This document shows positions 4,801 through 34,501 of a stretch of 64,000 nucleotides of DNA, piece after piece (position 1 is the stretch's first letter; the number at the start of each line of letters is the position of its first letter). The notes below the pieces were generated by a model that was not told the DNA's origin, searched no databases, and saw only the letters and a program-made list of their open reading frames with translations. Both the position numbers and the translations under genes were made by a program. Source of the stretch: Saprospiraceae bacterium (lineage in GTDB: Bacteria; Bacteroidota; Bacteroidia; Chitinophagales; Saprospiraceae); the NCBI GenBank assembly GCA_029263015.1, contig JAJCYI010000138.1, positions 62,001-126,000 on the forward strand. Direction: 5' to 3'.

Positions 4801-4825
4801 CCTTTTAGTGAATTCGAATGAATAT

Positions 4826-6307: not shown

Positions 6308-6484
6308 GTTAAATGTAGGTTGAGATATAAAAGCTTGTTCAGATATTTGGCGCAAAATTGAAGAGAACAGAACAGAAAACGGTAATATCCACAGAAAATT
6401 ATATGCGTGGAGGGCAAAAAGACAAGGGTGTTGGAAAGTAAATTAGTTGGGAAAATATTGCCAGTTTGTTGTTGAAAAGGGGCC

Positions 6485-6608
6485 AGGGGTCAGGTTTGAG
6501 GAGTCAGAGTTTGTAATTCCGTTCCGAATTTAACCTGATTCATAACCCTCTTAACTCATAACTCAAAACCCCTGACTCCTGACTCCTGACTCCTCAAACC
6601 TGACCCCT
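6485..6608. repeat. Inverted repeat with perfect 23-nt arms
   Basis: The arms 6485-6507 and 6586-6608 are exact reverse complements (AGGGGTCAGGTTTGAGGAGT... against its complement), about 78 nt apart. The inner part carries the low-complexity tandem CTGACTC CTGACTC CTGACTC. The right arm ends 7 nt before the ATG of the flavoprotein gene, so a folded transcript would place a long stem next to its start. The rest of the gap 6308-6484 shows no gene. Confidence 0.8.
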
Positions 6609-6615
6609 CTAAAAT

Positions 6616-17570: not shown

Positions 17571-18188
17571 TCACATCCCCCTTCTTGTCTGTTTCGGAAT
17601 CACGATGGCGATTTGCTCTACCAACCTCCCCATTTCTGGGTTGCTGGTGATGTTGTAGTATCGCCTGATAGTCAGACTGGTATCCACCAAGGCGACCCCC
17701 GTTTCAATATTGGGTAGCTGAAAGGCATTAGTTGCGATGCCAGTCCACTCAGATTCGTCAGTTCCCATTAAGAACCATTGGTCGTGATCTAAAATACCAA
17801 GATCTTGTGCTCGGTCAAGCATGCTTTGGGTAGAATCCGATTTTATGAACGAAAGGAATACTACATCCTCTACATTATTGTAACTCTGGTGGACTTTTGC
17901 AATGCGCTCAGTTTGCTGTTTTGCCACTTCCATATCATCTGAAAGAAAGTTGATGACTGTTACCCGGCCATGCAAGGCTTCTGGCGATATAGATATATTG
18001 TTTTGATTGTTCAGGATGAAATGGCCGACCTTACCGTGATCTTTTAATTCTGCGTGAGAAGCTTTGCGGTATTTTGTTCCAGAACTTAAAAAATAAATCG
18101 ATCCCAGTGGAAGAATGAAAAGCATGGCAAAGATCAGTGCAGCCACCAATTTGACATGTTTTTTCTTTTCAGGCTCTTGATTTTCCAT
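17571..18188 (-). CDS. SCO1/SenC-like thioredoxin-fold protein lacking the copper-binding Cys pair
   Basis: The ATG at 18188 (205 aa) is preferred over a GTG two codons upstream. One membrane anchor (residues ~12-36, LVAALIFAMLFILPLGSIYF) is followed by a periplasmic thioredoxin-like domain. In normal SCO proteins the strand after GxxxVxxF carries CxxxC; here the matching stretch reads VINFLSDDMEVAKQQ, with no Cys, and no obvious distal copper-ligand His is seen. It therefore probably cannot bind copper as SCO1 does, though its position between coxD and the DUF420 gene fits oxidase biogenesis. Confidence 0.7.
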   Translation of the reverse strand: MENQEPEKKKHVKLVAALIFAMLFILPLGSIYFLSSGTKYRKASHAELKDHGKVGHFILNNQNNISISPEALHGRVTVINFLSDDMEVAKQQTERIAKVHQSYNNVEDVVFLSFIKSDSTQSMLDRAQDLGILDHDQWFLMGTDESEWTGIATNAFQLPNIETGVALVDTSLTIRRYYNITSNPEMGRLVEQIAIVIPKQTRRGM

Positions 18189-18206
18189 TTTCACTTTTTG
18201 AAATTA

Positions 18207-18253
18207 AGTAACGATGAAACAATAAGTTGACAACTTATTATTTCATCGTTACT
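18207..18253. repeat. Palindromic repeat, AACGATGAAA family
   Basis: 23-nt arms (AGTAACGATGAAACAATAAG...) match their reverse complements with one mismatch around a single A. The same arm sequence bounds the element at 24786-24945, so this is a repeat family inserted into gaps of the respiratory locus. Confidence 0.85.
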
Positions 18254-18276
18254 AAGCACCGTTCCTTATGCCAATC

Positions 18277-18312
18277 AAAAAAGGCGAGCTTCATATGAGG
18301 CTCGCCTTTTTT
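18277..18312 (-). terminator. Terminator after the oxidase subunit IV gene
   Basis: AAAAAAGGCGAGC ... GCTCGCCTTTTTT forms a GC-rich stem with A and T runs on both sides, directly after the stop codon of coxD on the minus strand. It may split the long respiratory transcript here. Confidence 0.82.
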
Positions 18313-18313
18313 A

Positions 18314-18760
18314 TCAGATAAAAACTGTTGAAGTCTCTTCGTCATAATCGAGATAGCCAGTGGCTGGTGGAACTTCTATTTTATCTTTCTCTTCAATTAG
18401 TTGCCGACTCTTATTCCACGAACTTCCTTCTTGGAAAAAGGCGATGATCGCCCATACTAAAAGTAGCATCGGGAGCAGTACGGATGTGCGAAGTGAGCTA
18501 ACTTCAGAGCCGAGGTGCATAAAATTATAAACAATGAACCTCGCTTTATAGATGCTGAAACCAACCATGATTATACCATAGATTGATAGGAGGCCAATGG
18601 TGATCCACGGGGTATCACTCACATGGTTTTTGTGGAAGCTGGGTACGATATGCCCATTGAACAGCAACGCAAGGAATACTTCTGTGATAGTAACGACAGC
18701 CAATATTTTTAGCCCTTTCATCACTAATTTCTTCTGATCTTCGTAACTTAAATGACCCAT
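18314..18760 (-). CDS. coxD: Cytochrome c oxidase subunit IV (prokaryotic type)
   Basis: A 148-aa protein with three membrane helices (residues ~18-36, 51-70, 92-110) and a soluble acidic tail. It matches the small CoxIV/CtaF-type subunit found with aa3/caa3 oxidases of Bacteroidota. It lies 53 nt downstream of the long subunit III gene and is followed by a strong terminator. The subunit is thought to stabilise the oxidase and has no redox centre. Confidence 0.8.
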   Translation of the reverse strand: MGHLSYEDQKKLVMKGLKILAVVTITEVFLALLFNGHIVPSFHKNHVSDTPWITIGLLSIYGIIMVGFSIYKARFIVYNFMHLGSEVSSLRTSVLLPMLLLVWAIIAFFQEGSSWNKSRQLIEEKDKIEVPPATGYLDYDEETSTVFI

Positions 18761-18812
18761 TTTATTGAGATATTATTTTTTGACAAAAGATTTAAAACCA
18801 AACGTATTCTAT

Positions 18813-19673
18813 TTATAAAAGATAGAATACCAGGAAAACAAACACCCAAACCAAATCCACGAAGTGCCAATACAGGCCAATCTTCTCCACCATTTCATAA
18901 CCGTTTTTACGTTTTGTGTAAGTACCGCCTGCCACATTGATCAAAATGATCGATAGGAATAGAACACCCGAAAATACGTGGAAACCATGAAATCCGGTGA
19001 TGGAGAAAAACAAAGCACCGAATGCAGTTGGCCCGAAAGACAAGCGTCCTTCAACTCCACTTTCAGTCCTGTAAGCCCGCTGGATAAATTCATTGGTCTC
19101 ATGATCCTTATGGATGAGGTATCCATCTCCTTCCCTGAAAGCCTCAGCTTCTGTGCCCGCCTCATAAGCGTGCCCGTGTGCATCTTCCAAATAGGTGCCT
19201 GCCTCCAAGTGAGCACTGAAAGGATTGGTGTGGATGGTGGTGTTTTCATGCGCGATCATGGTCGTCCACTCCCAAGCTTGGCAACCGAGGAAAGTCGCCC
19301 CACCAAGTATAGTCAAGAACATCCAAAAAACCACGCCTTTTTTGTTTTCACGATGTCCTTCCTGCACCGCACGTACCATAGTCACAGAACTTATAATCAG
19401 GACGAAGGTCATGAATGTTACGAAGACAAGAGGAGCGCTAACTTCGCTGAAAAAAGGTATTTTTTCAAAAACCACATCTGGGACAGGCCAGACAGGGCTG
19501 CTAAAACGCAAGGCACCATAGGCTATCAGGAATCCTGCGAATGTGAATGCATCCGTCAATAGGAAATACCACATCATCAGTTTCCCATAACTAACATTGA
19601 AGGGGGATTTCCCACCTTCCCAGAGTTGATCATCTGTTTCGTTCGCATGCTCTAAAACTGCATCAGAAGCCAT
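18813..19673 (-). CDS. coxC: Cytochrome c oxidase subunit III (long form)
   Basis: A 286-aa subunit III with membrane helices around LMMWYFLLTDAFTFAGFLIAYGAL, APLVFVTFMTFVLIISSV and a C-terminal set ending YWHFVDLVWVFVFLVFYLL. A ~65-residue soluble insertion rich in His and Glu (residues ~150-215, DAHGHAYEAGTEAEAFREGDG) separates helices and is typical of Bacteroidota. Subunit III carries no metal; it supports subunit I and proton uptake. Second of two adjacent subunit III genes. Confidence 0.88.
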   Translation of the reverse strand: MASDAVLEHANETDDQLWEGGKSPFNVSYGKLMMWYFLLTDAFTFAGFLIAYGALRFSSPVWPVPDVVFEKIPFFSEVSAPLVFVTFMTFVLIISSVTMVRAVQEGHRENKKGVVFWMFLTILGGATFLGCQAWEWTTMIAHENTTIHTNPFSAHLEAGTYLEDAHGHAYEAGTEAEAFREGDGYLIHKDHETNEFIQRAYRTESGVEGRLSFGPTAFGALFFSITGFHGFHVFSGVLFLSIILINVAGGTYTKRKNGYEMVEKIGLYWHFVDLVWVFVFLVFYLL

Positions 19674-19757
19674 AAGAAATATTAAAGGTTGATGGTTGGA
19701 TGGCTAAATGGTTGAATGGCTTAGAAAACCATTTAACCATTTAGCCACTTAGCCATT

Positions 19758-20336
19758 TTATCTATACAAGGTCAAAAAAACAAAAAGATATACCCATAGC
19801 AAATCAACGAAATGCCAATAGGTCAATGATAGTTGAAAACGCAGTTTGCGTTGCTCAGTTGCCATATATTTTAAACTAAAAGCATGGATCATCGCTACCG
19901 CCAATATCGCAATCCCTCCAATCAGATGTGCCGCGTGTATCCAAGAAATCACATAGACAAAATCTCCTGCTGGATGTAAAGTGAAAGGTACACCTGCTTC
20001 TGTAAGTGCTTGCCAGCCATTGAATTGGAAAATAATAAACAGCACTCCCAAAATAAAAGTAGCTATCAACAACCCCTTGTACATTAGCTCATTTCCTTTT
20101 TTGAAAGAAAGAAACGAACCGTGCAGGGTAAGGCTGCTCAATAAGATGATGACAGTACTGTATGCAAAAACAGAAGGCAGCGTAAATTCGAGCCAGTTGC
20201 CAGCTGCTTGTCGCACAATGTAAGCACTGGTCAGGGCAACGAACATCATCGTCAGCGAAGTGCAGCCTACCCACAAAGCGAATTTATGGGGGTGGATTTT
20301 ATTCCGGCTGATACTATTTTCCAATGCCAAATTCAT
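19758..20336 (-). CDS. Cytochrome c oxidase subunit III (short form)
   Basis: A 192-aa, five-helix subunit III-family protein ending YWHFVDLLWVYLFVFLTLYR, the typical subunit III C-terminus. It is shorter than and clearly paralogous to the adjacent 286-aa subunit III. Two tandem subunit III genes of different length are usual in Bacteroidota oxidase loci. Its gap to the next gene (19674-19757) contains a low-complexity inverted repeat (GGTTGAATGGC / ACCATTTAGCC type). Confidence 0.85.
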   Translation of the reverse strand: MNLALENSISRNKIHPHKFALWVGCTSLTMMFVALTSAYIVRQAAGNWLEFTLPSVFAYSTVIILLSSLTLHGSFLSFKKGNELMYKGLLIATFILGVLFIIFQFNGWQALTEAGVPFTLHPAGDFVYVISWIHAAHLIGGIAILAVAMIHAFSLKYMATEQRKLRFQLSLTYWHFVDLLWVYLFVFLTLYR

Positions 20337-20398
20337 AATGTACTTAGGTTTCAGAAATCAGGGGTCAGTTTTAAGAATTCCCTGGAATCTGAGTTTTA

Positions 20399-21301
20399 CT
20401 AAACTTTATCAATCCACAGGGCAATCAAGGCCAGCGGCAAATAAAAAAATGAGCTGAACATCAATTGCCTTGCTGATTTTCGGTCGTCGTTTTTGTGCAG
20501 GTTCCAACCAAACCAAGCATAAACTATTGCAAGGATGGTCAGGAAAACAGCTGATCCAATTCCAGTATATCCTGCATACCAAGGCAGTAAGCCAACTGGT
20601 ACAAGGCAAAGGGCATAAATGAATCCTTGAATCCCAATGGTTTTGTCCCGCTCTCCGTTTTTCTCTGCTACAAATTTGAAACCGGCCTTTCGGTAATCTT
20701 CAAAGCCCAGCCAACTAATAGCTCCAAAATGCGGGAACTGCCAGAAGAACTGCAATGCAAATAGGGCAAAAGCCAATGATGTCAATTCTCCTTGAAACGC
20801 TACACATCCGATCAACATGGGCAATGCGCCAGGAAATGCACCAACTGCAATGGCTGACGGTGAAATCCTTTTCATCGGGGTGTATAAAAAGGCATAGCTC
20901 AATAAGGCCATCATTCCAAAGAAAGATGCCCAAGGATTGAACAAAGCCAAAAGCATTAGGCCAACTATGCCCAACAGCCCAGCTGCCAACACGCCATCGG
21001 AAACAGACATCCTGCCTGCTGCAAGGGGACGGTTGGCGGTGCGTTTCATCAATTTGTCAAAGTCCCTTTCGAGCACTTGGTTCAGTGCATTTGCGGCACC
21101 TGCAACACAAAATCCACCCAAGGCCAAAATTCCTATTGAAGCCCAATTAGTTGTACCAGTTGCAGCGATCAAATAAGCCATCACGGCTGAGAAGACTACG
21201 GTCAGGTTCAATTTGAATTTTACCAGTTCGCCGTAGTCCCGCACTTTTTGCGAAATAAGACTTACAGGCCGAGTGGTAACAGTTTTTGTCCTTGCGTTCA
21301 A
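20399..21301 (-). CDS. ctaB: Protoheme IX farnesyltransferase (heme o synthase)
   Basis: Membrane prenyltransferase that converts protoheme to heme o, precursor of heme a for the oxidase encoded next door. Motifs include the first Asp-rich region NQVLERDFDKLMKRTANRPLAAG and a second Asp-containing loop (SWLGFEDYRKAG). Multiple helices fill the rest. No ATG precedes the conserved start; the TTG at 21301 (300 aa) is chosen. A longer frame begins with a TTG at 21373 overlapping the coxA stop, but those 24 codons look like AT-rich intergenic repeat. Placement inside the cox string supports the function. Confidence 0.85.
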   Translation of the reverse strand: MNARTKTVTTRPVSLISQKVRDYGELVKFKLNLTVVFSAVMAYLIAATGTTNWASIGILALGGFCVAGAANALNQVLERDFDKLMKRTANRPLAAGRMSVSDGVLAAGLLGIVGLMLLALFNPWASFFGMMALLSYAFLYTPMKRISPSAIAVGAFPGALPMLIGCVAFQGELTSLAFALFALQFFWQFPHFGAISWLGFEDYRKAGFKFVAEKNGERDKTIGIQGFIYALCLVPVGLLPWYAGYTGIGSAVFLTILAIVYAWFGWNLHKNDDRKSARQLMFSSFFYLPLALIALWIDKV

Positions 21302-21369
21302 GTTATTATTTGATTTATGATTTATAGTTGTTGAAAAATCAATTATAAATAATAATTCATCACTTAAAG

Positions 21370-23226
21370 TCAATGTCCGTGGTCTCTTTCTCCTTCTTTC
21401 AGCGGTTCTATTTGTGAAATGAACTCTCTCCCGTCTTTTCCATAATCATAAGGCCAACGCTGTACGGTTGGAATTTTTCCCGGCCAGTTTCCATGTCCAG
21501 CTTTAATTGGTGTAGTCCATTCAAGGGTGTTAGCACCCCAAGGGTTTTTGGAGGTTACTTTTTTGCCTTTCCAAATGCTGTAAAAGAAATTGATGACCAT
21601 GATGAGCTGGAAGCCAAAAGTCAGAATGGCAGCAACGGTGATAAACATGTTCATTTCAGAAAAGTGAGAGAAAGTATCAAAGTTGTCGAAACGGTAGTAG
21701 CGGCGTGGTACACCTGCCATGCCGAGGTAATGCATAGGCCAGAAAATGGCATAAGCACCAACGATTGTTCCCCAGAAATGAATCTTTCCAAGAGTTGCAT
21801 TCATATATCGGCCAAACATCTTCGGGAACCAATGATAAACTCCAGCAAACATTCCAAAGAAAGCAGCAATCCCCATAACTATATGGAAGTGGGCTACCAC
21901 AAAGTAAGTGTCGTGCATCTGGATGTCAATGGCAGAGTTGCCAAGAAAGATACCTGTCAAGCCACCAGAAATAAACATTGATACAAAACCAATTGCAAAC
22001 ATGGATGCTGAATTAAAGCGGATGTTGGCTTTGTACATCGTCGAGATCCAGTTGAACACTTTTACCGCCGATGGAACAGCAATAATCAAGGTGAAGATCA
22101 CAAAAAAGTTTGCGATAAATGGGTTGATCCCAGCCATGAACATGTGGTGTGCCCACACGATAAACGAAAGGAATGCAATGGCGAGGATGGAAAAGACCAT
22201 CGCCTTGTAACCAAATATCGGCTTTCGGCAATGCACTGATAGTACCTCCGAGACAAGTCCCATTGCTGGCAAAATAATAATGTATACCTCTGGGTGGCCT
22301 AAGAACCAGAACAAGTGCTGGTAAAGGATCGGGCTACCACCTACGTGATCGAGCGCTTGGCCTCCTATGAATATTTCACTTAAATAAAAGCTGGTGTCCA
22401 AGCTGCGGTCAAACATGAGGAGCAAGAAACCAGAAACCAAAACTGGGAACGAAAGCAGTGCAATGATGGCCGTTACAAAGAATGCCCACACTGTCAATGG
22501 CATCCGCCACATGTTCATTCCTTTAGTTCTAAGGTTGAGTACCGTTGTTACATAGTTTACGCCACCAAGTGCAACTGAAACCACAAAGAACACAAGACTC
22601 AGAATCCAAAGTGTCATACCTGTGCCAGAGCCATCAGAGGCTTGTGGCAAGGCACTCAGGGGAGGGTAGGCTACCCAGCCTCCAGAGAATGGTCCAGTAC
22701 TAAGGAACAGAGAATAAAACATGACGATACTGGACAAGAAAAAGAACCAGTAAGATAGCATGTTCAAGAATGGCGAAGCCATATCCCTCGCACCTAATTG
22801 CAACGGAATGAGCAAGTTACTGAAAGTTCCACTCAAACCTGCGGTCAAAACAAAGAAGACAATGATCGTTCCGTGCATGGTCACCAGAGCGTAAAAAAAC
22901 TCAGGGGCTAAGGTCCCAATGCCTGTATCACCATTTACTTCAATCCACTTGCCTAACAGCGGTCTGAGCCAGGCCATGTTTTCCTCGGGAAAACCAAGTT
23001 GCAGTCTGAAAATGAGGGACATTGCAGCACCAATGATCGCCCAGATCATGCCTGTGATCAAGAACTGACGGGCGATGATCTTGTGATCCATGCTGAAGAT
23101 GTACTTCATTATGAAGTTAGACTGATGCTTGTCGCCATGCTCATGTTCATGGAAATGATCATCATATCCTAACTCCTGAATGAGTTTTTCATCTTGATCG
23201 TGTGCAATGGTGGTTACGTTAGCCAT
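21370..23226 (-). CDS. coxA: Cytochrome c oxidase subunit I
   Basis: A 618-aa catalytic subunit with twelve or more helices. The binuclear-centre motif WFLGHPEVYIIILP supplies the CuB His cross-linked to Tyr, followed by WAHHMFMAG (CuB His pair) and HDTYFVVAHFHIVMG (heme a3 and heme a His ligands). A His-rich N-terminal segment (HFHEHEHGDKH) precedes the first helix (KYIFSMDHKIIARQFLI). All key ligands are present. It follows coxB and precedes ctaB on the same strand. Confidence 0.95.
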   Translation of the reverse strand: MANVTTIAHDQDEKLIQELGYDDHFHEHEHGDKHQSNFIMKYIFSMDHKIIARQFLITGMIWAIIGAAMSLIFRLQLGFPEENMAWLRPLLGKWIEVNGDTGIGTLAPEFFYALVTMHGTIIVFFVLTAGLSGTFSNLLIPLQLGARDMASPFLNMLSYWFFFLSSIVMFYSLFLSTGPFSGGWVAYPPLSALPQASDGSGTGMTLWILSLVFFVVSVALGGVNYVTTVLNLRTKGMNMWRMPLTVWAFFVTAIIALLSFPVLVSGFLLLMFDRSLDTSFYLSEIFIGGQALDHVGGSPILYQHLFWFLGHPEVYIIILPAMGLVSEVLSVHCRKPIFGYKAMVFSILAIAFLSFIVWAHHMFMAGINPFIANFFVIFTLIIAVPSAVKVFNWISTMYKANIRFNSASMFAIGFVSMFISGGLTGIFLGNSAIDIQMHDTYFVVAHFHIVMGIAAFFGMFAGVYHWFPKMFGRYMNATLGKIHFWGTIVGAYAIFWPMHYLGMAGVPRRYYRFDNFDTFSHFSEMNMFITVAAILTFGFQLIMVINFFYSIWKGKKVTSKNPWGANTLEWTTPIKAGHGNWPGKIPTVQRWPYDYGKDGREFISQIEPLKEGERDHGH

Positions 23227-23269: not shown

Positions 23270-24772
23270 TTATTGGGTTAAAATTTGGAATTCGGTCCGG
23301 CGGTTTTTCTGCCTTCCAGCCTCGGTGTCATTAGTGTCGATTGGCTGGGTTTGGCCATATCCTCTTGCGTACATTCTGTCACCAGCTATTCCTTTACTGG
23401 CTAAATTGTCATAGACTGTCTGAGCCCTGGCTTGAGAAAGTGCTTGGTTAGCATCTACTTCACCAGTATTGTCAGTATGTCCAGCAACCTCGATGGTCAT
23501 ATTAGGATATTTGTTCATTGCCGCCACCACATTATCAAGTTCATAGCTTGATAATGAAGTAAGGTTGGCAGAGCCTGTTTCAAAAGCAACATGATCCATG
23601 CGGACAATTTTTTCAGTTGAATTTTCTGAAGCCATAGCTGTTTCAATTGCCGAGTCAAAATCTTGTTTGCGTTGTTTGATTTCTTTGCCAAACAGTTCAT
23701 CTTTTCGTGGGTCATGATCTTTTCCACGGATATTGCTCATGTAAAAAGATTTCTGCTGAGAAAGCCAATCTTCATATTCTTCTTGTGAAACAACTTCGAC
23801 AATCCTTCTCATACTGAAATGCCCTTTACCACATAGTTCGGCACAGGCCAATTCGTAGTCGAAAGATTTCCAAAGAGGCTCGCTGTCAGGATCCGACGGG
23901 TCAGAAAGCTGCTGGTATTCCGGATATTCCTTAAGGTTTTGTCGGTATTCTTCAGTAGTCAATTTTGGTGTGAAAACAAAGTATGTTGGCATACCTGGCA
24001 CTGCATCCATTTTTACACGGAAATGCGGCAGGTCAAAACTATGCAGAACGTCTATTGCAGTGATCCTAACCCGGACTTTAACGCCAACCGGCAAAACGAT
24101 TTTATCAGCATGGACGTCATCTATGTTTTTGTCATCCATCCAATCTTGGCCAAGTGGGTTAACACCGGGGACGATCTTCCTGTAATTGCGGGCACCCAAT
24201 TTCCCATCTGGGCCTGGATAGCGCAAATGCCAGAGGAATTGTTGTCCAATTGCCTCGATCTCAATATGGTCTTCGTCTGGTTCAACGTCAGCCATTACTT
24301 CGTTCCAAGCAACAAGTCCTTGGATCACGAGGAAGCACATGACCACTGCGGGTATTGCTGTCCAGATGATTTCAAGTTTGTTGTCGTGCGAGATGAAAGT
24401 GGCTTTTGCACCTTTCTTTCCTTGGTATTTATAAGCAAACCAAAACAAGGCGATGTGGGTCAATACAAAGACGATCCCAGTGAAAACCAAGGTCGTGTTG
24501 AACAGCCCATCCAAGGTGTCTCCATGCTCAGATGCAGCTTGATGAGGGCCATATCCCAGCATCCAGTTTTTAAAATCCCAAGCTGACCAGAAGCAGTAAA
24601 CGAGGAATACGACCATGAAAACAACCATTAAGATGCCATTGCGCCTATTGGTCTCAAATTGAACTTCTTCCTCCCCACGAATCTTGGCAGCCAATTCAGT
24701 TACTTTACCAATTTGGACAATCACGATACCAATGAGAAGAATGCAACCTATAATTATTAATCCAGTGCTCAT
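23270..24772 (-). CDS. coxB: Cytochrome c oxidase subunit II fused to an OmpA-type peptidoglycan-binding domain
   Basis: A 500-aa fusion. Hydrophobic segments at ~3-22, 46-66, 94-116 and 135-155; the last two are the usual subunit II hairpin. The periplasmic cupredoxin domain has the complete CuA site: His244 (DVLHSFDLPHF) and Cys310, Cys314, His318 and Met321 within CAELCGKGHFSM. A linker (~330-390) follows, then an OmpA C-terminal domain at ~392-500 with VAFETGSANLT, GHTDNTG, LSQARAQTVYDNL and NRRTEF. Asp434 and Arg449 match, by their 15-residue spacing, the residues that hold diaminopimelate in OmpA domains. The topology puts that domain in the periplasm. It probably tethers the oxidase to peptidoglycan (inference). 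Confidence 0.93.
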   Translation of the reverse strand: MSTGLIIIGCILLIGIVIVQIGKVTELAAKIRGEEEVQFETNRRNGILMVVFMVVFLVYCFWSAWDFKNWMLGYGPHQAASEHGDTLDGLFNTTLVFTGIVFVLTHIALFWFAYKYQGKKGAKATFISHDNKLEIIWTAIPAVVMCFLVIQGLVAWNEVMADVEPDEDHIEIEAIGQQFLWHLRYPGPDGKLGARNYRKIVPGVNPLGQDWMDDKNIDDVHADKIVLPVGVKVRVRITAIDVLHSFDLPHFRVKMDAVPGMPTYFVFTPKLTTEEYRQNLKEYPEYQQLSDPSDPDSEPLWKSFDYELACAELCGKGHFSMRRIVEVVSQEEYEDWLSQQKSFYMSNIRGKDHDPRKDELFGKEIKQRKQDFDSAIETAMASENSTEKIVRMDHVAFETGSANLTSLSSYELDNVVAAMNKYPNMTIEVAGHTDNTGEVDANQALSQARAQTVYDNLASKGIAGDRMYARGYGQTQPIDTNDTEAGRQKNRRTEFQILTQ

Positions 24773-24785
24773 TATTAAATTGCTT

Positions 24786-24945
24786 AGGAACGATGAAAAA
24801 ATAAGTTGTTAAGTTTGGGTAAGTTATTTTGGTCTTAGATTTTCTTTAAAAGAAAGAGTATAGTTGATACTATGACTGATTTTAAAGAAAAAAATAAGGG
24901 CAAAAGAATTAGCCAAAGTTGACAAGTTATTATTTCATCGTTCCT
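24786..24945. repeat. 160-bp inverted-repeat element, AACGATGAAA family
   Basis: The outer arms 24786-24809 and 24922-24945 (AGGAACGATGAAAAAATAAG... and its complement) match with two mismatches and are related to the arms at 18207-18253. The interior is AT-rich with a second imperfect inverted repeat (TCTTAGATTTTCTTTAAAAG). No coding. It occupies most of the 243-bp gap between actF and coxB. Confidence 0.75.
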
Positions 24946-25015: not shown

Positions 25016-26320
25016 TTATTCGTAAACTTGTACTTCGTGGTGTACACTTTCCTCCAAATAAGGGTCATTTTCAGCTACCATCGAAGCTTTTTGCAACTGA
25101 CTGAAAATGAAATAAATGAAAGCCCCAAGGAAGCCTATGAAAATTCCTATTTCAATCAAACCTGGAAGACTGAACCCTTCCACAAAAGACGATCCGTGTT
25201 GAACGGCTCCATGAGCCGCAGCCTCAGTACCATGTGAATGGCCGGCAGCTTCTTTGGCAGTAATCAAAGTACCAGGTTTAATCATGTAAAAATAATCTAC
25301 CCAGTGACCGATTAGCACCAATAAGGAAGCGAAAATCAATGTACCATAGCGGCGCTTAGTGGTATTGCGCAACAATATCAGGAATGGAAGTAGGAAATTG
25401 ATGACCAAGTTTCCGTAAAACAATACGGGGTAGTTATCGAGGCGCTCACGGAAGTAAATCGTTTCTTCACCTATGTTAGCATACCAGATCAACATGTATT
25501 GGCTGAACCAGCAGTAGGTCCAAAAAATGGAGAATGCAAACATATATTTGGCCAGGTCGTGCAAATGCTCATTGGTCACATTATCAAAATACCCCTTTAT
25601 TTTTAGATAAATAATAAGGATAAGGGTCAAAGCACAACCTGCCAACCACCAACTGGACATGCAGTACCAAGCAAACAAAGTACTGTACCAGTGAGCATCC
25701 ACAGACATGATCCATTGCCAGATCAACGCTGGACCAGTAAATGCAGCTATTGGAAGAAATATAGCTGCCCACATTCTTGTCTTGCGATGGAATGCAAAAT
25801 TTGAAACCTCTTTGCCCTGTTCGTCTTCTTGTACGGAGAGTTTCCTCATGCGAGTAGCGATGAAAGCCCAGATGCCTCCCAAAATCAATGTTCCCAACAT
25901 ATACCAATTGTTGTTCAAGAAGCTTGATTTACCTTGCAAGATCGTATCGCTTGCTACAGCATCTGCATCGGCCCAGTGGTACAAATGGTGGAAGCCCATA
26001 TAATTGCCAATCCCAAGGATTAGCATTAGGACTATGCCAGGAACGAGGAACAGGGAAATGCTTTCCCATAATCTTTTGAACGTTACATGCCACCCAGAAT
26101 AAGCAGTGATAAATGCGGCCAGCACAAATGTGATCATAAATGCCATTCCTGTGAAGAAAGTGGCATTATGCAAAAAATTGGACCAGAAGCGCTGGTGGAT
26201 GCCAGCATCTGCAATTACAGCAGGTTCGGCAAAGTAGGACATGATTAGGCAGATAAATCCTAAGACCATCATCCCACCCAAAAACGTTCGTTGATTTCTT
26301 TCGAAAGTAAACTGCTTCAT
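25016..26320 (-). CDS. actF: Alternative complex III subunit ActF
   Basis: A 434-aa integral membrane protein with about ten helices, matching the quinol:cytochrome c oxidoreductase membrane subunit ActF (a half-length relative of NrfD/ActC). Typical features are the NNNWYMLGTLILGG segment, WQWIMSVDAHWYSTLFAWY and the FSIFWTYCWFSQYMLIWYANI block. ACIII oxidises menaquinol and passes electrons to cytochrome c or directly to the oxidase. It lies between actE and coxB. Confidence 0.9.
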   Translation of the reverse strand: MKQFTFERNQRTFLGGMMVLGFICLIMSYFAEPAVIADAGIHQRFWSNFLHNATFFTGMAFMITFVLAAFITAYSGWHVTFKRLWESISLFLVPGIVLMLILGIGNYMGFHHLYHWADADAVASDTILQGKSSFLNNNWYMLGTLILGGIWAFIATRMRKLSVQEDEQGKEVSNFAFHRKTRMWAAIFLPIAAFTGPALIWQWIMSVDAHWYSTLFAWYCMSSWWLAGCALTLILIIYLKIKGYFDNVTNEHLHDLAKYMFAFSIFWTYCWFSQYMLIWYANIGEETIYFRERLDNYPVLFYGNLVINFLLPFLILLRNTTKRRYGTLIFASLLVLIGHWVDYFYMIKPGTLITAKEAAGHSHGTEAAAHGAVQHGSSFVEGFSLPGLIEIGIFIGFLGAFIYFIFSQLQKASMVAENDPYLEESVHHEVQVYE

Positions 26321-26422: not shown

Positions 26423-27322
26423 TTAATGGCCGTGGCCAGCATCAGTATCTTCTTCATGGCCTTCTTCCTCCGTTCCTTCTTCTCCATGGTCGTCTTCTTC
26501 GGGTTCAGAGGTAGTTGCTGCTGCTTTCACAGAATCACCAGGAACGCCAAATTCAGGGTTCAAGCTGTTGGCTTCACTACTGTAATCGGCTTTTTTCTCT
26601 TTGGCCTGCATCATTCGGATATAGTGTATTACTTGCCAGCGCTCTTCATAGGAAAGTTTATCGGCATGGGAGCCCATCATGTTTATCCCGAACATGATTG
26701 CATGATAATAGCGGCCATTGCTGGAATTAATAAAACCATCCAGCATGAAATTGGCTGGTTGAGCGGGGTATTTTCCACCAGGATCGCGTACCAGGTATCC
26801 ATCGCCATCGCCTTTATCGCCGTGGCAAGAGCCACAATAGATGGTATATAATTCTTGCCCCCTTGCAATACCATCCTTAGTAATTGGAAAGGGATTGAAT
26901 TTTATCTGCTGAATGGCCAGGTTTCGACCATCTTCCGTATCAGGAAAATAATAGGGGACTGATCCATTTGGTGCATAACTGATGCCACCATGATCTTTCA
27001 TTTTGTTGATCGTGTAAGCTACCGCTTCCTCAGCGGAAGTGAATACTTCATCACTAATGCCAATGCCTGAGTAACCACGTGCTATAGTGCCAGCAACGGG
27101 CAATCTAGGTTGGGCGAGTTCCCAACGGCTGGCCACACTTACTTCCTCAAAAGAATTTAAGGAATAGTCTGTGTAAACATTCGCTTCATAAGCTATCGAA
27201 TGCGCCATATCTGGAATGAATTCACTACCAGTCTGCTCACCTCCTGACTGCTGGCACGAATATGAACCGACCACGGTACACAAGACAGTTGTTCCTATTA
27301 AAAAATGTTGAATGATTTTCAT
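26423..27322 (-). CDS. actE: Alternative complex III subunit ActE, mono-heme cytochrome c lipoprotein
   Basis: A 299-aa lipoprotein: signal ending GSYSC (Cys23), then a class I cytochrome c domain with the single heme motif CGSCHG and a likely axial Met in FGINMMGSHAD. The C-terminal tail is an acidic and His-rich stretch (GEEDDHGEEGTEEEGH-like), about 35 residues, of unknown use. ActE is the mobile or terminal electron donor of ACIII. In operon order it follows actD. Confidence 0.9.
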   Translation of the reverse strand: MKIIQHFLIGTTVLCTVVGSYSCQQSGGEQTGSEFIPDMAHSIAYEANVYTDYSLNSFEEVSVASRWELAQPRLPVAGTIARGYSGIGISDEVFTSAEEAVAYTINKMKDHGGISYAPNGSVPYYFPDTEDGRNLAIQQIKFNPFPITKDGIARGQELYTIYCGSCHGDKGDGDGYLVRDPGGKYPAQPANFMLDGFINSSNGRYYHAIMFGINMMGSHADKLSYEERWQVIHYIRMMQAKEKKADYSSEANSLNPEFGVPGDSVKAAATTSEPEEDDHGEEGTEEEGHEEDTDAGHGH

Positions 27323-27434: not shown

Positions 27435-27965
27435 TTAAATACGTTTGGTATGTATTTCTTCTGCCCCTGTCTCATCGAAAAAACCTTTAAGTCCGTCCAC
27501 GCCATCATCACTCATATCATTGGTTTGAAATGCGATGCAAAACTTGTCATCAGTAATGCGGTCATGGAGTACTGGGTTGTCAACTCCGAATCCCATACCA
27601 CATATGATATAGAAAACCACGGTCATTCCAATACCACAGAAAAGAACGGTCATTTCAAATGTAACGGGAATGAATGCAGGGATTGCCCAATATGGCTTAC
27701 CTCCAAAGATGGTTGGCCAGTCGGATGTGAAGATCCAAGTCATACCGAGGAAGCCTACCAGACAGCCGAGCAAACCAAAAATAAAACCGACGATGTGCAG
27801 GCGGCTTTCATCCATTCCCAACAACTTGTCGAGGCCGTGAATCGGAAATGGTGAATAAACGTCCATGATGTCGAGGTGCTTGGCGTTTGCCTTCTTAATG
27901 GCATTCATCATGATAACCTCGTCATCGTAAAGTCCAAATAATACGTCTTTATACTTGGCGCTCAT
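27435..27965 (-). CDS. actD: Alternative complex III subunit ActD (DUF3341)
   Basis: A 176-aa protein of the DUF3341 family with two membrane helices (residues ~58-80 and ~100-123) and soluble ends. It opens with FGLYDDEVIMMNAIKKA and carries the YSPFPIHGLDKLLG block typical of ActD. It is a structural subunit of ACIII without cofactor, placed between actC and actE. Confidence 0.9.
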   Translation of the reverse strand: MSAKYKDVLFGLYDDEVIMMNAIKKANAKHLDIMDVYSPFPIHGLDKLLGMDESRLHIVGFIFGLLGCLVGFLGMTWIFTSDWPTIFGGKPYWAIPAFIPVTFEMTVLFCGIGMTVVFYIICGMGFGVDNPVLHDRITDDKFCIAFQTNDMSDDGVDGLKGFFDETGAEEIHTKRI

Positions 27966-28049: not shown

Positions 28050-29459
28050 TCAGTGAGCTTCAGCATGATCGGGCTTATGATCTTCCGTAGCATTAGGTCC
28101 AAGGTATTGGTCGCCATACTGTTTAAGGATGGCTTTCACTTCTGCTATAGCAACCACAGGGGCAACCCTTGTGAATGCCAAGAAGAGCATGAAGAACAAT
28201 CCAAGCGTACCAATGAAAATGCCTATTTCTACCCAACTTGGCCAATAGTAACTCCAGCTGGAAGGGAGGAAATCTTTTGCCAATGTGGTAGCGATGATTA
28301 CAAAGCGCTCGAACCACATGCCTATATTCACGAAAATGGATATGAAAAACGTCCACCATACACTCCTGCGGATTTTCTTTGACCAGTAAACCTGTGGAGC
28401 GAGGAGGTTACAGCTCATCATGCCTATATATGCCCAGTAATATGGGCCAGCCGCACGGTTCAGGAAGGCAAACTGTTCATACACATAACCAGAATACCAA
28501 GAAATGAAAAGCTCGATCAAATATGCTGAACCAACCATTGTACCTGTTACCAGGATCACTTTGTTCATGCTTTCAAGATGGCTCAAAGTGATATATTGCT
28601 GAAGGTTTAAGCATTTCCTAGTAATTATCATCAACGTTTGCACCATGGCAAATCCAGAGAATATCGCTCCTGCAACAAAGTAAGGAGGAAAGATGGTCGT
28701 GTGCCAGCCAGGGACAATTGAAGTGGCAAAGTCAAATGATACAATGGTGTGAACCGAAAGCACCAAAGGAGTCGCAATACCAGCCAAAATCAAAGAAAGG
28801 TATTCCCAGCGCTGCCAATGCTTGGCTTTACCAGTCCAACCCATGGCAAAGAAGGAATATATTTTCTTTCGGACACCTTTAGCCCGGTCACGAACCGAAG
28901 CAAAATCAGGTACCAAGCCTGTGTACCAAAACAATAATGATATGGTAAAATAGGTCGAGATTGCAAACAAATCCCAAAGCAATGGAGAGTCAAAGTTGAC
29001 CCACAACGGCCCCCGTGTATTGGGGTAAGGGAACATGAAAAAGTCAAGCCAAGGACGGCCAGTATGTGTTGCGGGAAACAAGCCCGCACACATTACCGCA
29101 AAGATGGTCATCGCCTCGGCAGAACGGTTGACCCCTGTCCTCCAGCGTTGGCGGAACAACAAAAGGATCGCCGAAATAAGCGTACCTGCGTGACCGATTC
29201 CGATCCACCATACAAAATTGGTAATGTCGTAACCCCAACCAACTGTACGGTTCAGGTTCCATGTGCCGATGCCAAAATAAAACGTCCAGCACAACGCGAA
29301 CATACCATATGCAAATAATGAAATTGAAATCACGATAGCTACCATCCACATTGTGTTGGGGGCTTTCTCAGTAGGCCCTACAAGGTCTTCCGTAATGTCG
29401 TGATAACTTTTATGCCCTTCTATTAAGGGTTCACGTATTCTAGAAACTGGTGCACTCAT
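28050..29459 (-). CDS. actC: Alternative complex III subunit ActC (NrfD-like quinol-binding subunit)
   Basis: A 469-aa NrfD/PsrC-family membrane protein with ten helices, including WWIGIGHAGTLISAILLLFRQRWR, FAVMCAGLFPATHTGRPW and VHTIVSFDFATSIVPGWHTTIFPPYFVAGAIFSG. In ACIII this subunit forms the quinol-oxidation site next to the iron-sulfur protein ActB. It is encoded between actB and actD. No oddities. Confidence 0.92.
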   Translation of the reverse strand: MSAPVSRIREPLIEGHKSYHDITEDLVGPTEKAPNTMWMVAIVISISLFAYGMFALCWTFYFGIGTWNLNRTVGWGYDITNFVWWIGIGHAGTLISAILLLFRQRWRTGVNRSAEAMTIFAVMCAGLFPATHTGRPWLDFFMFPYPNTRGPLWVNFDSPLLWDLFAISTYFTISLLFWYTGLVPDFASVRDRAKGVRKKIYSFFAMGWTGKAKHWQRWEYLSLILAGIATPLVLSVHTIVSFDFATSIVPGWHTTIFPPYFVAGAIFSGFAMVQTLMIITRKCLNLQQYITLSHLESMNKVILVTGTMVGSAYLIELFISWYSGYVYEQFAFLNRAAGPYYWAYIGMMSCNLLAPQVYWSKKIRRSVWWTFFISIFVNIGMWFERFVIIATTLAKDFLPSSWSYYWPSWVEIGIFIGTLGLFFMLFLAFTRVAPVVAIAEVKAILKQYGDQYLGPNATEDHKPDHAEAH

Positions 29460-29758: not shown

Positions 29759-32700
29759 TTAACTCAATGCGTCGTCCCTGTTCACCACTTTCACGGTGTA
29801 CTGTACTGATGGACGAATATTTATTTCTTCCAATACTATATAATTGAGTGGATCGTGGAATTTCTTGTCAATTTCAGATCCTTTCATGTTGGTATCACCA
29901 AATGTAATCGCTCCAGTTGGACAAGCAGTCTGGCAAGCAGATTTTACTTCACCATCACGGAGGGCACGGCCTTCACTTTTTGCTGTTAGTTTACCTTCCT
30001 GGATACGTTGTACACAGAAACTGCATTTTTCCATTACGCCACGTACCCGAACGGTTACGTCTGGGTTCAAGACCATCCTCGTCAAGTTGTCTCCGCCAAA
30101 TGGCACTTCCTCACCGTTCAGAGGCACTTCATTTACAGGGAAAAGGTCAGCAGTATTATAATCCAACCAATTGAAACGGCGGACTTTGTAAGGGCAGTTG
30201 TTAGCGCAATACCGTGTGCCGATACAGCGGTTATAGGCCATTTGGTTCAATCCTTCTGAACTGTGGTTGGTCGCAGAAACCGGACAAACGTTTTCACAAG
30301 GAGCATTGTCACAATGTTGGCACATCATAGGTTGATAGACCACATTTGGATTCTCATAATCGCCATAAAAATAGCGGTCAATGCGCAACCATGTCATTTC
30401 GTGGTGACGGTACACCTCGTGCTTACCAACTACTGGGACATTATTTTCGGCAACACAAGCCACTTGACAAGCTCCACAGCCAGTACACGCGTTCAAGTCA
30501 ACATGCAATCCCCAATGGTGGCCTTGTGAGTATTTTTCCTTGACGAATTCATCATAAGGATAAATAGTTTGCTGGTTGAGATGTTCGTGGTGGTGACGGC
30601 GTACTTCCAATCCTTTTCGTTGGCCATCAGTGCCGTCATTATGCATGAAGTGCTCAAGGTTGTTGAGGTTGGACCGCTCAATGATAGACCGTTCCGTCAA
30701 TGCTCCTTGAAAACCTTTGCCTAATGTCATCAAGGCAACTTCATCAACGTTCAAAGTTTCATCAGAGCCATCCACTTTTCCAGTCACACCCATGGTGTGG
30801 TGGTACTGTACACAAGCAAATTCGTCGTCAGGCTCAACATTTGTATTTACACCATTTACCGTATTATAATATTGAACATTGCCCTCCGCATCCCTTGACA
30901 TCCAAGGGTACACATTCCTACCAATCCCAATTCCACAATCTCCAGAAACTGTACGGCCATAGCCCAAGGCAATTGAAACGGTTTCTTTCTTCTGTCCAAA
31001 TTGACGGACACAAGAAACTACTTGACCTTTATCACCGATTGTCAACTCTACCTTATCTGCTTGTTTGTAATATTCATTTTCATTCAAACCTGCAAATTGA
31101 CCAGTAGCGTTGAATCGCCGGTCGCCATCAAATTCGATTGGAATAGAAAGGTAGTTGTCCCAAACACAGCGGGTAATTGGGTCGGGCATCTCCTGTAGCC
31201 AAGGATTGTCAGCATATTGGCCGTCTCCGATATTCACCGTTTCAAAAAATGAAACTTCAAGTCCGCTCTGGGGTTTGGAAACTTTTGAAGCAGCGCTTGA
31301 AACGTCTCCGTTGAACCCGTTATCGACAATACCAAGATCAGATGTTTCAAATACACCATCGTGCAAAGTGCTGTCCCAAAAAGCCCGGAAAGTTGCATAG
31401 TTGCTTTGGTGCGAGAACATATTGGCCTGCCAATTGGCATTCAGATATTCGTAATATACTTGTGCTGCACCAGGGTTGATACTTGTGCTTCCAGCCCAGC
31501 GAAGAATAGTTTCTTCTGCTTGGCGGGTATTGAAAAGTGGGGATATAGTAGGTTGTATTAAGGTGTAAACCCCACGTTTTGCTTCTGCGTCGCCCCAACT
31601 TTCCAAATAGTGATGGGTAGGAGCGACATATTTACAAAGGGCAGAAGTTTCGTTGGGGGCATAAGCCAAGGATACTGAATTTTGTACTTTTTCAAGTGCA
31701 GCTACAAAAGCTTCTGCATCTGGAATATCATAAGCTGGGTTAGCGCCTCCCAATACAATCAAGGTGCTGACACTTCCGCTGTTCATTTCACCGATCAGGT
31801 CAGCCACGTCACGGTCGATACCTTGGCGCTGCATCGATGCATTCGTAAAACTAAGGGTACTGCCGTAGTTGTTGAGCATGTTGTTGATGGCATTCACCAA
31901 GGTCTGCTCGCCAGTATTATTACTACCGGCAACAATCAGGGATTTGCCGCGGTTGGCCCAAAGCTCATCCGCTACCTTACCAAGTGCTGCTGATGCTTCA
32001 CATTTGCCACCGCCAACAGTCTGGCCACCTGCTTTGCTGGCAACCGCATTGTATAACGCCACGATAGCCTGACCCATTTCTGATGGCTTCACCAAAATAC
32101 GGTTATCCGCATTTGAGCCAGTCAGTGACATGGTGCTCTCCACTTGGATGTGGCGAGACATGTTAGGATTTTTTACATCTTTTATCTTGCGGTTATCAGT
32201 ATATTGACGGGCATATTCAATTGGAGAAATCCAGGTGCCGAGGAAATCTGCACCAAAGCTGACAATCACATCGGCTTTGTCAAAACTGTAGTTGGGAATC
32301 ACTTTTTGGCCGAAACAAGCCTCGTTTGCCTGCAACATCGCAGAGGATGAAACCGCATCGTAAGTTACAACCTTTGTTCTTGGATATTTTGCCAGAAACT
32401 CGCCCAAAACCTTTTTTGCTGTTGGGCTAATAATGGTGTTGGTCACGATCCGAACACTTCCTTCCCCCAATGCCGCACTGATTTCTTTATCAATAGTATC
32501 CCAAGAAATAGTTTCCCAGTTACCGCCAGCATTTTTTAAAGGCGACTGGTAGCGGTTGGTGTCATAAAGGCTCAATACGCTGGCCTGTGCCCTGGCGCTT
32601 GTGCCCCCTTTAGTCATGCTGGAAAGCGTATTACCTTCTATCTTTATCGGACGTCCTTCTCTTGTTTTAACTAAAACTGGGCAGTAATCGCCTCCATTAA

Positions 32701-32998
32701 CAAAAGAAGAAGCATAATAAGAAGCCACGCCAGGAACTATTTCATCAGGCTTGGTTACGTAAGGGATAGCCTTTTTGACAGGAATATCGCAACTGGCAGC
32801 AACTGTCGCAGCACTAACACTGAAACCCAAAAACTTCAAAAAATCACGACGGTTGGATTTTACTTCAAGCGTTTCATCTCTTTCGAGCAAGCTTTTTTCG
32901 TCAGCAAATTCCTTTTCAATGGATTCTAGGAGATGTGGATCCTTTTCCAAGTGTTCCACCCCGATCCATACTTCCTTATTTTGATCTTGATTTTTCAT
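29759..32998 (-). CDS. actB: Alternative complex III subunit ActB (molybdopterin-like plus 4Fe-4S ferredoxin domains)
   Basis: A 1079-aa protein. A ~48-residue N-terminal extension precedes the twin-arginine motif NRRDFLKFLG (Arg50-Arg51), the 'TAT-variant' layout of Bacteroidota. Residues ~70-740 resemble a molybdopterin oxidoreductase large subunit, a domain known not to hold the cofactor in ACIII. The C-terminal ~280 residues are a four-cluster ferredoxin: CTGCGACQVAC, CQHCDNAPCENVCP, CIGTRYCANNCP, CSFCVQ and CQTACP. It relays electrons from quinol to the heme subunits on the periplasmic side. It follows actA. Confidence 0.93.
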   Translation of the reverse strand: MKNQDQNKEVWIGVEHLEKDPHLLESIEKEFADEKSLLERDETLEVKSNRRDFLKFLGFSVSAATVAASCDIPVKKAIPYVTKPDEIVPGVASYYASSFVNGGDYCPVLVKTREGRPIKIEGNTLSSMTKGGTSARAQASVLSLYDTNRYQSPLKNAGGNWETISWDTIDKEISAALGEGSVRIVTNTIISPTAKKVLGEFLAKYPRTKVVTYDAVSSSAMLQANEACFGQKVIPNYSFDKADVIVSFGADFLGTWISPIEYARQYTDNRKIKDVKNPNMSRHIQVESTMSLTGSNADNRILVKPSEMGQAIVALYNAVASKAGGQTVGGGKCEASAALGKVADELWANRGKSLIVAGSNNTGEQTLVNAINNMLNNYGSTLSFTNASMQRQGIDRDVADLIGEMNSGSVSTLIVLGGANPAYDIPDAEAFVAALEKVQNSVSLAYAPNETSALCKYVAPTHHYLESWGDAEAKRGVYTLIQPTISPLFNTRQAEETILRWAGSTSINPGAAQVYYEYLNANWQANMFSHQSNYATFRAFWDSTLHDGVFETSDLGIVDNGFNGDVSSAASKVSKPQSGLEVSFFETVNIGDGQYADNPWLQEMPDPITRCVWDNYLSIPIEFDGDRRFNATGQFAGLNENEYYKQADKVELTIGDKGQVVSCVRQFGQKKETVSIALGYGRTVSGDCGIGIGRNVYPWMSRDAEGNVQYYNTVNGVNTNVEPDDEFACVQYHHTMGVTGKVDGSDETLNVDEVALMTLGKGFQGALTERSIIERSNLNNLEHFMHNDGTDGQRKGLEVRRHHHEHLNQQTIYPYDEFVKEKYSQGHHWGLHVDLNACTGCGACQVACVAENNVPVVGKHEVYRHHEMTWLRIDRYFYGDYENPNVVYQPMMCQHCDNAPCENVCPVSATNHSSEGLNQMAYNRCIGTRYCANNCPYKVRRFNWLDYNTADLFPVNEVPLNGEEVPFGGDNLTRMVLNPDVTVRVRGVMEKCSFCVQRIQEGKLTAKSEGRALRDGEVKSACQTACPTGAITFGDTNMKGSEIDKKFHDPLNYIVLEEINIRPSVQYTVKVVNRDDALS

Positions 32999-33073: not shown

Positions 33074-34501
33074 TTAATAATGGCATTTCTGGCACTCTGT
33101 CCCGCCAATGTCTTCAACGGTTACTTTATCCCTTTCCAGGTCTTTGATTTCCTGGTGGTAATTTTCATAATAGTTGTCGTAATAGCCGTTGCTGGCAAAT
33201 TTGACTTCAGTTTGGCGGTGGCAGCTGATGCACCATCCCATTGAGAGGGGAGAGTACTGCTTCATTACAGCCATCTGTTCAACTTTACCGTGGCACTGTT
33301 GGCACTCAATTTTACCGACGGACACGTGTTGTGAGTGGTTGAAATATACATGGTCAGGTAGGTTGTGGATACGTACCCATTCGATTGGACCAGCTATGTT
33401 TTCATCACCTTCTTCAGGATCGGTCAATGCATCGACGATACCATCCCATTGTTCCTCAATCAGGTTCTCGCCTTCGTCGTCCAACAATCCTTTGTCTTGG
33501 ACATATTGGTCAGCAATCCATTTGGTGTATATCTTTTTGATATCCTCCTCGGCCAGTTGGTCGTAATCTTCTATATACTTGTCAGTACTAGGGTCAAAAC
33601 CAATTGAAGCATATATTTTGGTCAATTCCTTGGTGCCCCATCTTGAGCCATTCTTAATGGCTTTGTGGCAGTTCATGCAGGTACTTGCTCCTGGGATGAT
33701 GGCATGTTTGGAGCGGCGGGCGCCATCGTGGCAGTAGTTACAATCAATTTTTTGCTCACATGCATGGATGATGTGGGAGAAATTGATCGGTTGTTCTGGT
33801 TGGTAACCTTGTTGGCGACCAAGATTGATCGAATTGTTTACGGTAATATAGCCTCCGGCAACAATCACCAAGAAAATTGCAAAACTGACTACACTTTTGC
33901 CAGTGAGTATTTCTGCTAAGGTCTTGCGCTGAGGAGTGATGCCCGTCTCTTTTATTTCCTCCATATGGTTAAGATTGGAAATAATGCGGGCAAGTATCAC
34001 AGCAAGCAAAGCCAAAACAACAAATAGAAAACCGTACAATAAACGGTTGCTGTCTTCAGCTTCTGTAGGAACCTCGCATTCGGAAGCCGCAAGGTCGTCC
34101 TTTGAGCCTCCACCACCACCTCCAGCAACTTGGAAATCAATATAACCGAGAATATTGGCAATGTCCTCGTCCGTAAGGTTAGGGAAACTGGTCATGACCC
34201 CTGGTTTCCACTCGTTCCACAATTCTGTGGCCCGTGGATTACCGTCGGCGATCATGCCCTGCGAATTCCTAATCCATTGGTACAGGTCTTCTTCAGAATC
34301 CCAGTTGTCTTGGGTCCCTCCAAGTGGTGGGCCAGTGAGCTTGCTCTTCATGTCCTTGTTGTGGCAAGCCGCACAGTTGTTCTTGAAGAGGGTTTTCCCA
34401 GCGTCGATATTAACCTCTTGACCAAAGGTGGAGAATGTAAGAAAGGAAAGCGCTAATACTAAAAGCTTGTAAGTCAGTCTTTTAAATGCCATGTTTAGCA
34501 T
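33074..34501 (-). CDS. actA: Alternative complex III subunit ActA, multiheme cytochrome c
   Basis: A 475-aa cytochrome c. Two in-frame ATGs (34501 and 34492) precede a signal peptide ending STFGQ; either is possible. Six CxxCH motifs are seen: CAACH in an N-terminal class I cytochrome domain (~residues 30-125), then after a membrane helix (LLYGFLFVVLALLAVILARI) and a second helix, CNYCH, CMNCH, CQQCH, CISCH and CQKCH. The last five form the usual pentaheme ActA; the first is a fused mono-heme domain. First gene of the respiratory operon, with a good promoter match upstream. Confidence 0.93.
   Translation of the reverse strand: MLNMAFKRLTYKLLVLALSFLTFSTFGQEVNIDAGKTLFKNNCAACHNKDMKSKLTGPPLGGTQDNWDSEEDLYQWIRNSQGMIADGNPRATELWNEWKPGVMTSFPNLTDEDIANILGYIDFQVAGGGGGGSKDDLAASECEVPTEAEDSNRLLYGFLFVVLALLAVILARIISNLNHMEEIKETGITPQRKTLAEILTGKSVVSFAIFLVIVAGGYITVNNSINLGRQQGYQPEQPINFSHIIHACEQKIDCNYCHDGARRSKHAIIPGASTCMNCHKAIKNGSRWGTKELTKIYASIGFDPSTDKYIEDYDQLAEEDIKKIYTKWIADQYVQDKGLLDDEGENLIEEQWDGIVDALTDPEEGDENIAGPIEWVRIHNLPDHVYFNHSQHVSVGKIECQQCHGKVEQMAVMKQYSPLSMGWCISCHRQTEVKFASNGYYDNYYENYHQEIKDLERDKVTVEDIGGTECQKCHY

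Follow-up and report, generated by a model that had tools for sequence, protein, structure and literature searches.

The window analysed here, a stretch of 64,000 nucleotides from a Saprospiraceae bacterium (assembly GCA_029263015.1, contig JAJCYI010000138.1, positions 62,001 to 126,000), contains a gene for subunit II of cytochrome c oxidase (coxB) that ends in an OmpA C-terminal domain. The gene belongs to an alternative complex III (ACIII)-aa3 operon, which runs on the minus strand in the order actA-actB-actC-actD-actE-actF-coxB-coxA-ctaB, two subunit-III-like genes, a small subunit and sco, with coxB adjoining coxA and the genes of the electron-donor complex (act) upstream. The names actA to actF, ctaB, coxC, coxD and sco are those that we assume from gene order and family, and the order resembles that of the ACIII-aa3 genes of F. 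johnsoniae; the ActE product we take, by eye, to be a lipoprotein. The product of the actF-like gene has no Pfam match. The features, in window coordinates, are as follows.

33074..34501, minus strand: actA, multiheme cytochrome c with six CxxCH motifs by eye (motif count)
29759..32998, minus strand: actB, Fe-S/molybdopterin-like ACIII subunit (operon order, cysteine motifs by eye)
28050-29459, minus strand: actC (operon order, synteny)
27435-27965, minus strand: actD (operon order, synteny)
26423..27322, minus strand: actE, monoheme cytochrome c lipoprotein, without an OmpA domain in the window (Pfam Cytochrom_C)
25016..26320, minus strand: actF-like ACIII membrane subunit (operon position; between actE and coxB in relatives too)
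23270..24772, minus strand: coxB-OmpA fusion gene for a 500-aa subunit II of cytochrome c oxidase that ends in an OmpA domain (Pfam, alignment, model)
24326..24547, minus strand: COX2 transmembrane hairpin, residues 76-149 (Pfam PF02790)
23738..24292, minus strand: periplasmic CuA domain, residues 161-345, with H244, C310, E312, C314, H318 and M321 (Pfam, alignment)
23600..23737, minus strand: linker, residues 346-391, predicted to be helical at 362-381 (identity, model)
23273..23599, minus strand: OmpA C-terminal, putative peptidoglycan-binding domain, residues 392-500 (Pfam, alignment, model)
21370..23226, minus strand: coxA, subunit I (Pfam COX1, 4.1e-141)
17571..21373, minus strand: ctaB-like gene, two subunit-III-like genes, small coxD-like gene and sco-like gene (family and order, synteny)

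A palindromic dispersed repeat (ACGATGAAATAATAAsTTGTCAAC and its inverse) occurs at 18208-18252, 24790-24813 and 24918-24941, that is, beside sco and in the gap between actF and coxB. It has eight matches genome-wide with at most two mismatches, the reversed control giving none, and may be a small element of mobile or regulatory type.

The coxB gene (24772..23270, minus strand) is a single open frame of 500 codons, and the plus strand in the same frame holds many stops; the preliminary description of this DNA had placed the gene correctly at 23270-24772, leaving its strand unstated. Pfam recognises COX2_TM at residues 76-149 (2.2e-10) and COX2 at 170-260 (1.9e-12), both above their cut-offs, followed by OmpA at 396-490 (6.6e-20), the last with 71.7 bits against a gathering score of 27.2 and with profile positions 2-98 of 98 covered; the NCBIfam CoxB model TIGR02866 scores 126.8 bits, under its cut-off of 147.7. 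The motifs GHTDNTG, LSQARA and NRRTEF stand in one frame with the CuA part, which bears out the original claim of a complete CuA site joined in frame to a full OmpA C-terminal domain: H244, C310, C314, H318 and M321 are all present and do not vary among the 65 fused proteins aligned, and E312, between the two CuA cysteines, is at least 90% conserved in the same alignment. A frameshift or stop at the junction, named at the outset as a way in which the fusion might prove false, is ruled out, as is a chimeric assembly, since independent assemblies from many genera encode the fusion in one frame.

Searches against solved structures match the first part of the product to Paracoccus subunit II and its last 110 residues to OmpA-type domains, including the Acinetobacter OmpA chain 3td3; the caa3 oxidase structure 2yev is matched as well. 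The AlphaFold2 model (mean pLDDT 89) has a well-formed OmpA region (pLDDT 88-95) behind a helical linker, adds two N-terminal helices (2-32 and 34-66) before the COX2 hairpin, and returns OmpA-type structures among its structural matches (ranks 47, 49 and 50). All predicted long helices end by residue 159, ahead of CuA. Because CuA is periplasmic and no transmembrane helix is predicted after it, the OmpA domain is predicted to lie in the periplasm, its sidedness following from homology to subunit II, and the modelled chain combines a membrane part and an OmpA domain as MotB-like wall-anchored complexes do.

Within this domain D434, N442, L445, S446, R449 and A450 are shared by all 66 intact CoxB-OmpA domains, and an alignment of 65 fused proteins, that of the window included, has G437 and R492 invariant in addition to these six. 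The Asp and Arg of the pocket recur in 21/21 ActE-OmpA domains and in 19/19 other OmpA domains read; the three counts (66, 21 and 19) cover intact matches over 60 bits, with decayed tails and one of the two OmpA frames of locus L217 outside them. Asp434 and Arg449, a pair whose spacing had been pointed out, lie 15 residues apart and would be the equivalents of the diaminopimelate (DAP)-binding pair D271/R286 of Acinetobacter OmpA. Mean pairwise identity is 62% in CuA, 53% in residues 1-160, 50% in the OmpA part and 32% in the linker (346-388), the least conserved stretch of the fused protein. The OmpA part evolves faster than the oxidase core, its dN exceeding that of the core in nine of ten close pairs; dN/dS for the OmpA part is 0.06-0.23 in the four of these ten pairs where it could be computed, with dS at 1.3-2.3 and so near saturation.

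A search of subunit II homologues in Bacteroidota, proposed earlier as a check, found the fusion in 67 of the 91 family genomes with a listed oxidase gene, the remaining 24 being without it. The family sample comprised 100 genomes from 99 genera, all with a match to the query; the 91 were counted by hand among the matches listed, and the best E-values of the other nine (1e-22 to 1e-28, with matches listed for only some of them) fall in the range of matches to other OmpA proteins. The 67 fused genomes encode the protein in one frame in 65 cases, in two frames in G043 and over two contigs in G088. Eighteen of the 91 have no intact OmpA on either CoxB or ActE (actE being off the contig in G027). 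Neither protein carries it in the only same-genus genome seen (G061, locus L111), and no clear relic of OmpA was detected behind coxB there, tblastn giving three short matches (E 0.15 to 2.6). Named relatives, the best 80 of 216, comprise 12 within the group (L001-L012, mostly Saprospiraceae MAGs), where the domain is intact in ten and decayed in two, and 68 further matches, largely Chitinophagaceae, of which none shows OmpA on CoxB (in L015 the gene runs off the contig); ActE is likewise without it in all 62 of these in which actE came into view.

Further afield, at least seven non-family genomes carry the fusion in an order sample of 198 genomes (161 outside the family by hand count). In the class (295) and phylum (296) samples no match from outside the order spans the OmpA region to its end among the matches listed, and diverged fusions may have escaped among those beyond. 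Seventeen long CoxB frames from other families of the class (L171-L187) were rejected as fusions: the CoxB match stops just short of the frame end, leaving no more than a short tail, and a C-terminal OmpA is absent from all of them; G500, G473 and G556 were rejected as well, reaching query positions 403-420 only through in-frame stops. Read directly, these three genomes together with G535 and G248 have OmpA on CoxB in none of five, and the G248 frame first listed as 973 codons proved to be one of 360.

The domain is not always maintained where it is present. In three loci (L011, L012 and L134) a tail is kept from which the pocket motifs are gone, Pfam finding no OmpA in those of L012 and L134, so the domain can drift; many close relatives are without it, so it is dispensable for respiration. 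In the L011 MAG, actF and coxB seem to form one 998-codon frame (4417-7413), which may be a real fusion or a missing stop.

A second carrier was found in the partner complex. OmpA is present on ActE, the monoheme lipoprotein of ACIII, in 21 ORFs of relatives. It lies at the ActE C-terminus in six family genomes (L115, L121, L125, L126, L127 and L133), in 12 of the 18 loci examined in a second family of the order (f12), where loci were chosen mostly for a match of this kind, in L201 (f22), where no CoxB lies within the stretch read, and in L211 and L212 (f85, outside the order). In two more f12 loci (L202 and L203) actE is followed immediately by a distinct OmpA frame, through a gene split or a sequencing error, and one further f12 locus has an OmpA fragment near actF. 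The ActE linker of f85 holds a TSP3-like stretch (21.6 bits, under the Pfam cut-off of 25), a sequence feature that points to a separate fusion there. The model of an ActE-OmpA protein has a mean pLDDT of 72 and is poor outside the OmpA domain, and its heme part was left out of account. In L133 the coxB tail is a low-complexity stretch rich in His, Gly and Thr.

In no locus were both proteins found to carry the domain, among 155 with both genes seen. The 83 order loci in which both are complete (95 minus 12 where a gene touched a contig end or was out of view) divide into 33 with CoxB-OmpA, 18 with ActE-OmpA, none with both and 32 with neither, a split that does not give frequencies, unfused loci having been fetched on purpose, and in which L202 and L203 were scored as neither. 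Fisher p values for the exclusivity were set aside on account of this biased sampling. In 29 fused family loci (L082-L110) actE lay outside the stretch read. Few evolutionary events underlie this exclusivity: on the trees ActE-OmpA needs 7 to 9 changes. The preliminary description mentioned neither ActE as a second carrier nor the large number of relatives that have no such domain.

On the CoxB tree CoxB-OmpA requires 22 changes (with L136 scored as lacking the domain) and ActE-OmpA nine; a quickly built tree from five further proteins of the operon (101 rows) gives 17 and seven, and counts of this kind cannot separate gain from loss. The L136 contig stops inside coxB, the other half of which, with OmpA, is on G088:C184 (L270), and it was scored as fused on the five-protein tree. 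There, five of the six family ActE-OmpA rows fall outside a 46-row group (SH-aLRT 100) that contains every family CoxB-OmpA row of this tree (30), together with 12 rows lacking the domain, three decayed ones and L127. This placement is compatible with a switch of carrier from ActE to CoxB, without proving its direction; L115 stands among the fused rows on the CoxB tree and outside them on the five-protein tree. The tree of the domain itself (113 columns) is poorly resolved, and AU tests run without L176, L201 and L209 did not reject a single clade of all CoxB-OmpA domains (p 0.588), nor one of all ActE-OmpA domains and split ORFs (p 0.787).

In three loci from three families (L152 in f19, L153 in f8 and L169 in f18) the OmpA parts are 72-77% identical and the oxidase cores 43-54%, giving the three largest excesses of OmpA over core identity among 2,016 pairs. 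The OmpA part of these loci has therefore been transferred or replaced separately from the oxidase, and the comparison suggests lateral exchange of the tail alone. The Pfam OmpA family is matched 40 times in the window genome (G000), which gives domain shuffling a large stock to draw on.

A membrane pyrophosphatase of the genome that holds L153 (G150; L267, 4808-7516, minus strand) also ends in a copy of the L153 module, with 72% identity. Such pyrophosphatases, with frames of 902-957 aa, occur in at least four genomes of the order, the others being G122 (L269, 6331-9087, minus strand), G149 (L291) and G154 (L295, 1493-4366, minus strand), and their OmpA parts in L269, L291 and L295 are related to the L153 module. 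A pyrophosphatase match was obtained in 178 of the 198 order genomes at the cut-off used; three rows span OmpA by alignment, and the fourth (G154) came from reading 11 further long or typical frames. Since it was found only by reading, alignment extent alone undercounts these fusions, of which there may be more. OmpA is found on CoxB as well in G150 and G122, and on ActE in G149; in G154 CoxB is unfused, and no OmpA match lies near it on its contig. The same module ends a separate 444-codon frame without a heme motif in L268. In other genomes of the order (L296-L300 and L305) the pyrophosphatase tails are rich in Cys, Met and His instead of OmpA, and are possibly metal-binding.

The CoxB tail belongs to the same domain family (OmpA_C-like) as MotB/PomB, TssL, YfiB/Pal and OmpA. 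MotB/PomB and TssL are inner-membrane complexes fixed to the wall by an OmpA-type domain. The wall-anchored systems of this kind serve motors, secretion machines or the outer membrane, and we know of none that is a redox or respiratory enzyme. In caa3 oxidases (2yev) subunit II also bears an extra C-terminal periplasmic domain, but this is a cytochrome c, a heme electron carrier, rather than OmpA. Closer in kind is Gloeobacter PsaB, from what we take to be the Gloeobacter PSI structure (PDB 7f4v_aB), in which the core subunit of a plasma-membrane bioenergetic complex ends in an OmpA-like stretch (755-866 of 872; 8.1e-14), although this complex is a photosynthetic reaction centre in a cyanobacterium and not an oxidase. 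That stretch has reportedly been suggested to bind peptidoglycan. In the main text of the Gloeobacter PSI paper the words peptidoglycan and OmpA are absent (PMC9000952). Fusion of OmpA to membrane pyrophosphatase is already in print for Paucibacter and other Burkholderiales (PMC11210485), giving an inner-membrane ion pump with a C-terminal OmpA like that of CoxB, but one that consists of a single protein, whereas the carrier here is a multi-subunit respiratory complex; peptidoglycan goes unmentioned in the main text of that paper.

For the complex itself the nearest system is the ACIII-aa3 supercomplex of F. johnsoniae (PMC8552683; structure 6BTM is named there), a complex of the same kind by description, and the available part of that text mentions no OmpA domain on its ActE or CoxB. 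Its ACIII and aa3 are described as tightly associated, and its ActE as having a lipid anchor and as helping growth while being dispensable for electron flow to aa3 (PMC8552683, in part). The same article was rejected as a source for OmpA on an oxidase, its 11 "OmpA" mentions, in the part seen, referring to a promoter. By analogy with this system and from the operon, ACIII and the oxidase would be associated in the present organism too. No OmpA domain fused to a terminal oxidase or to ACIII was found in the open-access literature (titles and the starts of abstracts), in line with the original remark that no well-described oxidase has this design; the architecture is nevertheless common in the family and the principle has precedents. 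What is new here is that a familiar anchor domain is borne by another class of machine, and there by either of two carriers, OmpA-anchoring itself being known.

We consider it probable that the OmpA domain is an exchangeable peptidoglycan anchor of the ACIII-aa3 supercomplex. A variable linker, helical in part, would suspend the domain in the periplasm behind CuA, and its Asp434/Arg449 pocket would bind meso-DAP stems of the wall in the manner of OmpA, Pal and MotB. This grip would fix the electron-transfer unit laterally, set the distance between inner membrane and wall, or both, and may bring a physiological benefit. The selected trait would be one anchor per supercomplex, whichever subunit bears it, and the finding of the anchor on either complex fits such selection; in most of the family it would sit on subunit II, whereas ActE would bear it in some branches, few in number, and in many genomes of the order's second family. 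A tie of the ACIII-oxidase complex to the wall, as first proposed, is thus the best-supported reading, given the invariant pocket, the periplasmic topology and the presence of OmpA on ActE elsewhere, although wall binding as such is something that we infer.

The same domain might instead leave the wall untouched and serve as a protein-protein docking or assembly module, joining ACIII to aa3 or positioning the mobile heme domain of ActA. That each partner complex has one subunit able to carry it (CoxB or ActE), and that no locus of the 155 has it on both, would suit such a role. We regard docking as unlikely: it leaves the invariant pocket of 66/66 and 21/21 intact domains unexplained, the rest of the domain is only moderately conserved (50% mean identity vs 62% for CuA), and the same kind of module sits on the pyrophosphatase and on the 444-codon frame of L268, which have no known ACIII partner.

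Two further explanations grant less to respiration. CoxB and ActE might be structural tethers from inner membrane to wall that keep the width of the periplasm, respiration gaining nothing, and a changeable carrier, the absence of any anchor from some genomes, OmpA tails on the H+-pyrophosphatase and the wide use of the domain in the window genome implied by its 40 matches would all agree with this. Against it, the other membrane-enzyme carriers (ActE and the H+-pyrophosphatase) are both energy-transducing, a weak point, as sampling was near those genes and among the paralogues of one module; we judge a purely structural tether to be quite unlikely. It is highly improbable, in our estimation, that the tails are functionless products of recurrent read-through fusion with abundant OmpA genes, tolerated where they arise. 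Patchy presence, many changes on the trees, the decayed tails of L011, L012 and L134, the large genomic pool of OmpA domains and evolution faster than that of the oxidase core are what hitch-hiking of this sort might produce, but the fusion is kept in 67 of 91 family genomes, the pocket is invariant in intact domains, dN/dS is well under 1 where computable, and ActE serves as an alternative carrier.

Respiratory enzymes are usually treated as diffusing freely in the membrane, and the fusion bears on the question of what fixes or clusters them in bacteria. Returning to the anchor reading, we suggest tentatively, and with rather less confidence than we place in the anchor itself, at somewhat short of an even chance, that the ACIII-aa3 complex of the order may be an immobile, wall-fixed unit for which one anchor is selected and the carrier is exchangeable, and that wall-anchoring of energy-transducing enzymes by OmpA domains may be a recurrent and largely unrecognised arrangement (oxidase, ACIII, H+-pyrophosphatase and, independently, Gloeobacter PSI). 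The anchor may also bear on the role of ActE, which in F. johnsoniae helps growth although electron transfer does not need it (PMC8552683, in part). Genomes with the anchor on subunit II, and relatives with it on ActE or with none, offer a natural comparison for tethering, which could address mobility, electron transfer and the spacing of the envelope.
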